From: Desulfurococcaceae archaeon
GTDB taxonomy: Archaea > Thermoproteota > Thermoprotei_A > Sulfolobales > Desulfurococcaceae
DNA length: 43,064 nucleotides
Assembly (NCBI GenBank): GCA_020833225.1
Contig: JAJHQS010000008.1
Span: 1-43,064, forward strand
Reading direction: 5' to 3'
How positions within the stretch are numbered: position 1 is the stretch's first letter; the number at the start of each line of letters is the position of its first letter. Shown one piece after another: positions 10,501 through 21,486 of this stretch. The translations under genes and the position numbers were made by a program. The notes beneath the pieces are model-generated. The model had not been told where the DNA came from. It did not search any database and saw only the letters and a list, made by a program, of their open reading frames with translations.

Positions 10501-10557
10501 ACGTCAGAAAATCGACCCCTCATCAAGAGATCAGAATATGTCGGCTTCATCACACAC
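10501..10557 (-). ncRNA. C/D-box guide sRNA (2'-O-methylation guide)
   Basis: On the minus strand: box C GTGATGA (10547-10553), a 12-base guide AGCCGACATATT, box D' CTGA (10531-10534), a 5-base spacer, box C' TGATGA (10520-10525), a 12-base guide GGGGTCGATTTT, and box D CTGA (10504-10507). All four boxes are perfect and both guides have the standard archaeal 12-base length. Nine bases of the D' guide (AGCCGACAT) complement ATGTCGGCT, which as I remember it is the conserved 23S peptidyl-transferase segment around A2503; the N+5 rule would then point to U2504 (E. coli numbering). The target of the D guide is not identified. Confidence 0.85.
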
Positions 10558-10654
10558 TAGAATTTTAATAAAAGTCTGTATTTAAAATTACCCTCTCTTA
10601 GTTCTAATAACTTCACTTGTAGAGAGCAATCTTTATTAGTAGCTAATTGTAACC

Positions 10655-10678: not shown

Positions 10679-12595
10679 TTGAAGTGGCTAGTGCTTTTAT
10701 TTCTAATAGGAGTATTTATAATTCTTACGCCAGTTTACAGTATTTTAGAGTACAGTGTCGTTAAAACACTGACAGTATATGCTCCAGCAGTCTCGAGTAG
10801 CGGCGCTGGTATATTATCAAAGATAACTCTAGGCATAGCTTACCCTGGTAATGGTAGAGTTTTCTTTTCAGCTTTACCATACACAGAAATTGAAACACAA
10901 GGTGCTGCACGAATAGCAGCTTTTATAGCGTCACTACTAGCACAAGTAGAATTTTCTAACTACGACTACTATGTTTTAGTAGAATCTACTACTCCAATTA
11001 TCGGTGGACCCAGTGCAGGTGCATTATTTACTGTAGGCTTTACTTCCCTACTACTAGGTCTATCAATAAACAATAACACAACAATGACGGGTATGATTAA
11101 TCCCGATGGAACCATAGGCCCTGTAGGAGGCTTAAAAGAGAAACTTGAGGCAGCAGCATCCAGCGGGTTTAAGGTCTTCTTAATACCACTTGGACAGAGA
11201 ATATATAAATATCCGGTTTACGAAGAGATCACTAGAGGCTGGTTAACTATTAGGAGAGTTACTTATAAAACAATAGACCTAGTAGAATATGGTAAAAAAA
11301 TAAATGTCAGCGTCATAGAAGTCGGCAATGTTCTAGAGGCGTTTTATTACTTTACAGGAGTTGATCTTGGAAAAAACGCAACTGGAATAAGCATTAAAAT
11401 AAGTATAGAATTAACCAATATTTTAAACAACGAGTTAACTAGAATAATGAGCGATATAATCGACTATATTAAAAAAACCACTAGTATTACTAATACTTTA
11501 CCTAGTGCCTATAAATATTATTACCTACAAGTAATAGAGAACTTGAATAATACGCTTGCAGGCTTAATCGAGATCTCTAGGAATTATCCTACATACGCGT
11601 TATTTAAACTAATAGATCTCTATGAATCTGCTCTATCACTATATTTACAGTTAGCGATTGCTACAGGTATCTTGAGTATAGAGAACACTATAAACTCTCT
11701 CTATAATGCTCTTAACGAGTATAGTAAAACTGCTTCGAGTAAGTGTTCTTTGGAGTCGTCTTTGGCAAGGGCATACATGTATATGGCGTGGTATTATTAC
11801 ACACAAGCTAACTCAGCGTTAAATACTAGTAATTTAGATGTCACATTAATTAATATTGCTCGTAGTTATAGAAACCTCTTAGAGCACTCAATATATGAAA
11901 ATATGGGTTCTTCCAGTAATGTAAAGTTGAGTTGTGAAGTAAATAAACTAATCCAAGTATATTCTAGTGCACTTGCCTCATATGTATATGTAATGAGAAC
12001 TCTTAATAGTGCTGGTATAACCCCTACCGGCGATATCGCTGATATACTTAACGATCGTGTCAATGTAGCCGCGTATATGAGTGAGAACAATGACATAGGT
12101 CTTTTAGGAATATCATTGCTTATACTAAGTTACACATCACTACTATTACACTCAGCTATTGGTGATACTTCTAGCATATCTGACAAATTAGAGAAAATGA
12201 TAGCTATATATACAGAGGTCTCAGAAACGCCCCTTTACAACTTATATATAGACTTAGCTAATAGTGCGCGTGAATTAAGAGATGAAGATATGTATGGTAA
12301 GGCTCTTCTCTTCGCTATTGCAGTAGTACAAGTACTCACACAAGTAGGTGCGTTAGGAGGAACCTCGAGAAATACGCAACAAAATACTTTAACATCAACA
12401 ACTCTAATTAGCAGTACACCAGGAACAAGCCCATGTATATCAAACACCACGACATATGAGACGCCTACTACAACCTCTCTGCTTGATAAGGCTAAAATAT
12501 ACGTCGATCTAATAATAGTGATCTTAGCCATTATTATATTAATTCTACTTCTAACTAAGCTGTTATCAAGAAGTAGAAAAGCAGGTATGTCTTAA
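10679..12595 (+). CDS. Membrane-anchored extracytoplasmic Lon-like serine protease (S16-type)
   Basis: 638 residues, TTG start after GAGGTGAG. A signal sequence (about 4-22) is followed by a Lon-type proteolytic domain (about 30-225): GGPSAGA holds Ser112, and GPVGGLKEKLEAA holds Lys155. The 43-residue Ser-Lys spacing equals that of Lon. There is no AAA+ ATPase. A helical region (about 230-560) follows, then a Ser/Thr-rich stalk (about 560-600), one membrane helix (about 606-627) and a short basic tail inside the cell. The protease therefore faces outward, probably at the S-layer side. Such proteins are listed in archaea as predicted serine proteases (COG1750). HtpX is 47 bases downstream. 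Confidence 0.85.
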   Translation: MKWLVLLFLIGVFIILTPVYSILEYSVVKTLTVYAPAVSSSGAGILSKITLGIAYPGNGRVFFSALPYTEIETQGAARIAAFIASLLAQVEFSNYDYYVLVESTTPIIGGPSAGALFTVGFTSLLLGLSINNNTTMTGMINPDGTIGPVGGLKEKLEAAASSGFKVFLIPLGQRIYKYPVYEEITRGWLTIRRVTYKTIDLVEYGKKINVSVIEVGNVLEAFYYFTGVDLGKNATGISIKISIELTNILNNELTRIMSDIIDYIKKTTSITNTLPSAYKYYYLQVIENLNNTLAGLIEISRNYPTYALFKLIDLYESALSLYLQLAIATGILSIENTINSLYNALNEYSKTASSKCSLESSLARAYMYMAWYYYTQANSALNTSNLDVTLINIARSYRNLLEHSIYENMGSSSNVKLSCEVNKLIQVYSSALASYVYVMRTLNSAGITPTGDIADILNDRVNVAAYMSENNDIGLLGISLLILSYTSLLLHSAIGDTSSISDKLEKMIAIYTEVSETPLYNLYIDLANSARELRDEDMYGKALLFAIAVVQVLTQVGALGGTSRNTQQNTLTSTTLISSTPGTSPCISNTTTYETPTTTSLLDKAKIYVDLIIVILAIIILILLLTKLLSRSRKAGMS

Positions 12596-19655: not shown

Positions 19656-19712
19656 ACTGGTGATGAGAACCCGGCAATAATGAGCTATGATTAATCAGAG
19701 TTTCGCTGAGGG
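19656..19712 (+). ncRNA. Candidate C/D-box guide sRNA just before the second Lon-like gene
   Basis: Box C GTGATGA (19660-19666), 13-base guide GAACCCGGCAATA, a weak D' (ATGA, 19680-19683), a 3-base spacer, C' ATGATTA (19687-19693, one mismatch), 12-base guide ATCAGAGTTTCG, and a perfect box D CTGA (19706-19709). Boxes C and D and the D-guide length are canonical; D' is not. It overlaps the region that a naive reading would make the start of the following protein. It may be processed from the same transcript. Targets are unknown. Confidence 0.5.
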
Positions 19713-19719
19713 GAAAAAC

Positions 19720-21486
19720 GTGTATGTAAAATCCTCAACCGTGAAAATACTCATATCTATGTTAACACTTGTCATGTTAACTTTAAATATGATTAATCCA
19801 GCACTAGGAGAGCAACAGTATAAGACATGTAGGGTAACCCTCCTCGCGGTCTTAAGTGATGGTAGAGGTGCAACTGTTCCCGGCGAGATCAGGGTTATAT
19901 ATGGCGGAAAAGGGCTGATCTCTACTAGTAGTGGTGTCGGTGAAGATGTAGCAGTCTCTTTTAATCTCGCGTTAATGTATGCTTCAGTTATTACAGGCGT
20001 GGATTATAAGTGTTGTAATTATTACCTGGATATCAGTGCAAATGTAGGAGGACTTAGTGCTACACTATTATTTTTTATAGCGCTTTTACAGATATTTCAG
20101 GGTCAAGAATGCTCTACAAGTGTTTCAGCGACAGGTATCATAGGTCCAGGAGGCATAGTTGGAGCTGTGGCCGGGCTAGAGCAAAAACTACTCGCTGCAC
20201 AAGAGAAGAATTTAACTCTTGTATATATCCCTGGCGTAGAACTCCAACTTCTCAATTATACCCCTGTTTCTGTTAGAGGGATTTTCACTGTTTATGACTT
20301 TATATATGAAGAATTTGAGAATTCAAAAACCACTATGACAAACAAAAGCGCTCAAATAGCTTTTAGAACTATATATGAGAACTTGTCTTCTATTACTGGG
20401 AACATTTTACATCAACTAGAGAGTGTAATGTGGAGAGATGAGTACTATGAGCTTGCACATAAATACTTAGAAGAAGCGTTCACGGTAGCCTCTCATGATA
20501 GATACTATGTAGCATCTTCACTCGCTTATGCAGCGCTTGTTAATGCGTATATATCTAAACTTGCATATTTAAATACCACGAACACGGAGGCTTTACATAG
20601 AGAGATCAGTTCAACAATAGAAGAAACCCTCACTATAGCTTCAAGTATTAAGAATAAAATTATACAGGAGCTAGAAGTAATTGCGAAGACTAAGTACGTT
20701 AACCCAGCCTACTTAGATTTACTCATAACCACCTATACTAGGGCTAGTGAAGCTGAAAAATTAGCCATACAGGCGAAAACATCTTTTAGTGCTGAAAAGG
20801 ATGTCAATGAAGCTATCTATATTACAGCTAGAGCGTGGACGCGTGCTCTATCAGCTCTAGGTTGGTTCAACGTAACCCTAGATAATTATAGCAATGTAAA
20901 TGAAACTCTAAGCATGCGCAATGTGGGATTAATTAATACTAGGCTAAAAGAGTTCCTAGATGCTCACGTAAATTACTTATTGCAAATGGGTATAGGTAGG
21001 AGGATTAATTTATCTGAGAAAAACGACTTAGTGAAGTTTATACAAATATTTGAGCAATTACTAGATATCTCACGAGATCTCTATACAAGTTTACCTAGTA
21101 GAGTTTTATTTATATCTAATAGTACAGAGCTAGTTAGGTCCTTAGTAACTAGGTTGAAGAGATTAGTAGAGGGCTTTACAGAGCATTACAATTATTATCC
21201 ACTATCTACTCTACTAGTATTGGATTTAGCAGAGTATTACTTAAACCTCGGCTTTGAACCCCTTACTGTGATGTCACTTATATATACAGAGCTTCCTAGA
21301 TTAGCACTCTATATGCTTGCAGCAAGAGCCGAGAAATGGGTAACTATGGTTTCTCACCCCATCTATGCTCCACGTGAAGTAGCTGTCATTTACTCACTTG
21401 TAATTCTATTTTGTGGATTATATCTGCTTTATTCTACCTACAAGTCATTTGAGAAGAGAAGACTTCTTCTCGCAGCTGAAGTCTAA
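19720..21486 (+). CDS. Second, divergent extracytoplasmic Lon-like protease with membrane anchor
   Basis: 588 residues from the GTG at 19720, which follows GAGGGG; an ATG 11 codons upstream has no ribosome site and lies in the candidate sRNA. A signal peptide ends near PALGEQ. The Lon-type domain is diverged but keeps Ser113 (NVGGLSATL) and Lys156 (AGLEQKLLAA), 43 residues apart as in Lon, in place of the usual GGPSAG and GGLKEK. A long helical region follows, then one membrane helix near the C-terminus (VAVIYSLVILFCGLYLLY) and a short basic tail. Same build as the protein at 10679-12595, without the Ser/Thr stalk. Activity is plausible but unproven. Confidence 0.75.
   Translation: MYVKSSTVKILISMLTLVMLTLNMINPALGEQQYKTCRVTLLAVLSDGRGATVPGEIRVIYGGKGLISTSSGVGEDVAVSFNLALMYASVITGVDYKCCNYYLDISANVGGLSATLLFFIALLQIFQGQECSTSVSATGIIGPGGIVGAVAGLEQKLLAAQEKNLTLVYIPGVELQLLNYTPVSVRGIFTVYDFIYEEFENSKTTMTNKSAQIAFRTIYENLSSITGNILHQLESVMWRDEYYELAHKYLEEAFTVASHDRYYVASSLAYAALVNAYISKLAYLNTTNTEALHREISSTIEETLTIASSIKNKIIQELEVIAKTKYVNPAYLDLLITTYTRASEAEKLAIQAKTSFSAEKDVNEAIYITARAWTRALSALGWFNVTLDNYSNVNETLSMRNVGLINTRLKEFLDAHVNYLLQMGIGRRINLSEKNDLVKFIQIFEQLLDISRDLYTSLPSRVLFISNSTELVRSLVTRLKRLVEGFTEHYNYYPLSTLLVLDLAEYYLNLGFEPLTVMSLIYTELPRLALYMLAARAEKWVTMVSHPIYAPREVAVIYSLVILFCGLYLLYSTYKSFEKRRLLLAAEV

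Follow-up and report, generated by a model that had tools for sequence, protein, structure and literature searches.

Archaeal guide RNAs evolve fast, and their targets are usually assigned by short complementarity alone. The closest described systems to the locus considered here are the dual-guide C/D box sRNAs of Sulfolobus acidocaldarius, Ignicoccus and Pyrobaculum reported by Dennis et al. 2015 (PMC4644070); that paper describes the same boxes, 12-nt guides and 9-bp pairing across N+5, and also dual guides with two 23S targets within 100 nt and a location in the peptidyl-transferase hotspot, features that our locus likewise has. Methylation is known to cluster in domain V (PMC4644070, PMC7994747), and 61 sRNAs have already been identified by RNA-seq. 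The S. acidocaldarius copy of the present sRNA may well be among these and is probably listed in a Sulfolobus transcriptome under an sR number. Neither U2504 nor the U2504/U2479 target pair appears in the main text of PMC4644070. In Table 3 of the same paper the D' target of Thermoproteus tenax sR50 is alignment position U2753, which at the offsets of that paper (269-274) equals approximately E. coli 2479-2484, and so sR50 may share its helix-89 target site with our sRNA, a correspondence drawn from numbering only; its other guide is assigned there to U2883 and 2783, not to the U2504 position, and the guide order differs. RNAs of this kind are well known; what is unusual here is the strength of the target assignment.

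The window, i.e. the whole 43,064-nt stretch from a Desulfurococcaceae archaeon, carries on its minus strand an uninterrupted, full archaeal C/D box sRNA core, read directly from the letters (Table 1). Boxes C, D', C' and D follow one another in order with the k-turn GA/AG elements, as in archaeal C/D box sRNAs generally, and the C/D' and C'/D intervals of 12 and 12 nt fall within the usual ~10-13 nt, a spacing that is kept in the homologues. The preliminary description had placed the element between two protein genes on the opposite strand, which is where it lies, and had called all four boxes exact with guides of 12 nt; the guide lengths and the exactness of C, D' and D stand, whereas C' begins with U instead of the R of RUGAUGA, the sole deviation. 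It had also judged the arrangement very unlikely by chance; searched for strictly, the architecture occurs once in the window and is absent from all 400 windows simulated by a first-order Markov model with the same dinucleotide make-up. Chance resemblance or a pseudogene, in favour of which only the short length of the element can be cited, is excessively improbable in view of this result, of conservation across the order and of the covariation described below. Elsewhere in the window a weaker C/D-like array on the plus strand (19660-19709; GTGATGA ... ATGA ... TGATTA ... CTGA) overlaps the beginning of the ORF that starts at 19687 and is a relaxed match, of which 0.03 are expected per window.

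Table 1. Features of the sRNA locus and its flanks in window coordinates
Feature	Position	Strand	Basis or remark
C/D box sRNA gene	10501-10557	-	Approximate transcript; box-to-box core 10504-10553; anatomy, simulations, homologues
C box GTGATGA	10547-10553	-	Direct reading; kept in relatives
D' guide AGCCGACATATT, 12 nt	10535-10546	-	Own 23S (L055) and N+5 covariation
D' box CTGA	10531-10534	-	Direct reading
Spacer TCTCT, 5 nt	10526-10530	-	Direct reading
C' box TGATGA	10520-10525	-	Direct reading
D guide GGGGTCGATTTT, 12 nt	10508-10519	-	Own 23S (L055); GGGTCGAT conserved in homologues
D box CTGA	10504-10507	-	Direct reading; kept in nearly all homologues
TATA-box-like element TTTTAAATA	10579-10587	-	~26-34 nt upstream of C box; direct reading
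Metallophosphoesterase gene, calcineurin-like, PF00149	9607-10497	+	Tail-to-tail with sRNA; context marker
Lon_C domain membrane protein ORF	10679-12595	+	Other flank of sRNA; Pfam

Scanning the window with Rfam at gathering thresholds returned tRNA only, with no model above threshold for the sRNA. In a relaxed scan RF01304 sR5, RF00095 snoPyro_CD and RF01139 sR2 scored 24.1, 24.2 and 21.1 bits against gathering cut-offs of 40, 45 and 42, none reaching its cut-off; the alignments of all three run end to end along the C/D architecture, but their guides differ, so that the resemblance is generic.

The targets were sought in the organism's own 23S gene, a partial copy on contig C31 (L055) that is truncated at the contig end, so that the search covered the part remaining after loss of the 5' half from the assembly. 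Domain V reads ...CCCAUCGACCCCGCGGUUUGCUACAUCGAUGUCGGCUCUUCC... there, and ATGTCGGCT is found at L055:1482 in the context TCGATGTCGGCT, i.e. at A2503-U2504. Positions are named in E. coli numbering, counted from what we take to be A2503 of the E. coli 23S. Positions 4-12 of the D' guide form nine contiguous Watson-Crick pairs with 23S AUGUCGGCU (nt 2503-2511), which puts U2504 at N+5, and positions 4-12 of the D guide, for which the preliminary description gave no target, form nine with AUCGACCCC (nt 2478-2486, the 3' strand of helix 89), which puts U2479 at N+5. With two 23S targets 25 nt apart, the sRNA is a classical double guide. The nine-base complement to the peptidyl-transferase centre that had been proposed for the D' guide is thus present in the organism's own rRNA, the suggested search of both guides yields a match for each, and the three guide bases beside D' fail to pair, as had been remarked. 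The same is true of those beside D, so that the duplexes are of 9 bp and not 10-12. Both conform to the published rule for targets, nine or more consecutive pairs including N+5 (PMC4644070). Against a 3.5-kb stretch of 23S, 2.7% of random 12-mers drawn from the window attain nine pairs including N+5, from which two such guides within 100 nt are expected by chance at ~4e-5. For the 16S no match was found in the organism's assembly (G000), which is rated 99.55% complete. Domain V of the own 23S is interrupted by two AT-rich insertions (L055:~866-1240 and ~1625-1848) that look like archaeal rRNA introns, the first holding a decayed LAGLIDADG-like frame at 891-1082.

The geometry of these duplexes also bears on another proposal, that the C/D sRNP chiefly chaperones the folding of helices 89/90, with methylation weak or absent for want of pairing by guide bases 1-3 beside D and D'. 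Pairing of both guides does end at position 3, one guide addresses the 3' strand of helix 89 and the other, 25 nt away, the 5' strand of helix 90, and such roles have been proposed for double guides of this sort (PMC4644070). We regard it as unlikely, for reasons that come from the relatives of the sRNA.

Searching the DNA of 60 relatives yielded 11 homologues that retain both guides intact. The sequence model built from these, R1, was applied to 197 genomes of the order and finds the sRNA in 104 (72 of the 118 good ones), with matches rare outside the order. About half of the order's genomes, among them a clade of family f2 that has U2504, have no model match, and the sRNA is therefore not universal in the order. 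Among the carriers are what we take to be Sulfolobus acidocaldarius (G074), S. tokodaii (G105), Thermosphaera aggregans (G024), Desulfurococcus mucosus (G034), Pyrolobus fumarii (G053) and Ignisphaera aggregans (G038); copy L093, presumably that of S. acidocaldarius, reads TGATGACGTCGACATAGGCTGAGCAATGAAGAAGGGTCGATAACCTGA. The boxes, whose absence from related genomes had been named at the outset as evidence against the RNA, are conserved across the homologues. Over the ~90 sequences read, hardly any change is seen in the guide cores GCCGACATA and GGGTCGAT, against free variation in the spacer, in the positions next to the D boxes and in the flanks. In the Sulfolobaceae-like genus g42 (L104, L105, L210) guide position 8 is mismatched and pairing is gained at positions 2-3, N+5 still being U2504. 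A Micrarchaeota match, L042, shares the D' guide and not the D guide. Pattern-scan matches over genome contigs were mostly bacterial ones of chance origin, the second guide being found only in the Desulfurococcaceae/Thermoproteota ones.

The sRNA lies a few bases past the 3' end of the metallophosphoesterase gene, and most of the family relatives examined share this tail-to-tail arrangement, as might be expected if the locus acted mainly in cis or on mRNA, as a k-turn or antisense element regulating that convergent gene. We consider this very improbable, since outside the family the same guides occur in other gene contexts (Sulfolobaceae-like genomes), and conservation falls on the pairing with 23S, in which one base changes together with the rRNA. 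The large gene on the other flank (10679-12595) and a second large gene of the window, at 19687-21486, look like paralogues that encode membrane proteins carrying a Lon/S16-type domain, the Pfam assignment being for the first only. In the Sulfolobaceae-like genomes the ~75 nt directly 5' of the C/D sRNA form one hairpin with a basal stem of 8-9 bp, an internal loop and a 3' ACA, so that an H/ACA-like sRNA and the C/D sRNA stand in tandem (L079, L080, L082, L085, L092, L093, L095, L097, L099, L102, L103, L104, L105); a search for a target of this hairpin upstream of the Sulfolobaceae copies found none.

Upstream of the C box, A+T content among 24 family relatives peaks at 0.91 at -31 to -35, which is where an archaeal TATA box would lie if transcription began slightly ahead of box C, by a few bases. 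Most archaeal sRNAs have no TATA box of their own, and only ~20% of archaeal C/D genes have a TATA-like motif (PMC7994747), whereas a TATA-like element is conserved here and lends indirect support to expression of the locus as an RNA of 50-60 nt.

The clearest support for the U2504 assignment comes from homologues in two families that read GACGT instead of GACAT, i.e. G for A at N+5, where the 23S reads UCGACGUCGG, i.e. C for U at 2504. C2504 is seen in the 23S of G038, G048, G058, G076, G083, G091, G097 and G102 (family f3) and of G066, G106, G116, G121, G131, G145 and G154 (family f2). Among genomes in which the sRNA was read, the guide base is G in 17 of 17 with C2504 and A in 47 of 47 with U2504 (the latter including G023, whose guide reads GCCGACATA), these genomes being non-independent observations. 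The tally covers genomes with a 23S sequence; guide G also occurs in 13 genomes that lack one (G101, G112, G140 and G158 among them), and guide A in G122 of family f3. Guide-G pattern matches in G012 and G046 were rejected as chance, being situated away from the true sRNA loci of these genomes. When the site is masked, the 23S tree implies two or more changes for C2504 and rejects a single clade of C2504 genomes (p-AU 0.001); either C2504 was gained twice, or it was gained once in the common ancestor of families f2 and f3 and then reverted in the U2504 clade of f2, in the searched members of which no copy of the sRNA was found. Three assemblies of one genus (G067:C54, G107:C84, G127:C14; L256-L258) break at ~23S nt 2501-2503, inside the guide target, probably an assembly effect and possibly an insertion there.

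A guide base that changes alongside its 23S target base is strong evidence for the role of the sRNA, and because the covariation falls on the very nucleotide that would be methylated it lends independent support to the target assignment and indirect support to methylation there. It is also what weighs against a mainly chaperoning RNP, since the guide base exactly opposite N+5 tracks U or C at 2504, and methylation needs a Watson-Crick pair at N+5, whereas annealing alone would be nearly satisfied by G:U or A:C; selection for duplex strength alone could, on the other side, also maintain this pair.

We are highly confident in reading the locus as an archaeal dual-guide C/D box sRNA for 2'-O-methylation of U2504 and U2479, a reading in which transcription, RNP assembly, methylation and chaperoning are inferred. 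It is based on the anatomy, the complementarity to the organism's own 23S, the conservation, the covariation of guide and target base and the genes for nop5 and fibrillarin, which are adjacent ORFs on contig C76 of the genome (Nop, E=1.6e-73; fibrillarin, E=1.9e-102). For the double-guide RNA, the C/D and C'/D' k-turn motifs would bind L7Ae and then Nop5 and fibrillarin; the D' guide on nt 2503-2511 would place fibrillarin at the 2'-OH of U2504, in the wall of the peptidyl-transferase centre, and the D guide on nt 2478-2486 would direct 2'-O-methylation of U2479. Given the 25 nt between the sites, a single RNP probably engages both, and during assembly it may in addition keep helices 89 and 90 open, as the paired stretches are strands of these helices.

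If the prediction is right, the second modification has a bacterial counterpart in AviRb, which makes Um2479 (PMC9508554, PMC1829167), the same nucleotide with the same 2'-O-methylation; unlike the sRNA, AviRb is a protein methyltransferase for avilamycin resistance and is not RNA-guided. A literature search for Um2504/Um2479 in archaea returned the AviRb papers only, with no mention of methylation at archaeal 2504.

To our knowledge, U2504 is usually treated as invariant, and some archaea carry C at this position despite that reputation. The orientation of base 2504 governs the species selectivity of antibiotics of the A-site cleft (PMC5154188). The sRNA described here keeps both its guides across an order, with support from covariation at the nucleotide predicted to be methylated that is independent of complementarity, and the assignment would point to ribose methylation at 2504 and 2479. 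On balance we favour the view that this is an order-wide guide for 2504 ribose methylation and that the methyl group matters enough for the change of U2504 to C in f3 (Ignisphaera-like) and f2 to have come with a change of the guide from A to G, the guide being lost in the U2504 clade of f2, which would make this a natural case of guide-target coevolution at the active centre of the ribosome.
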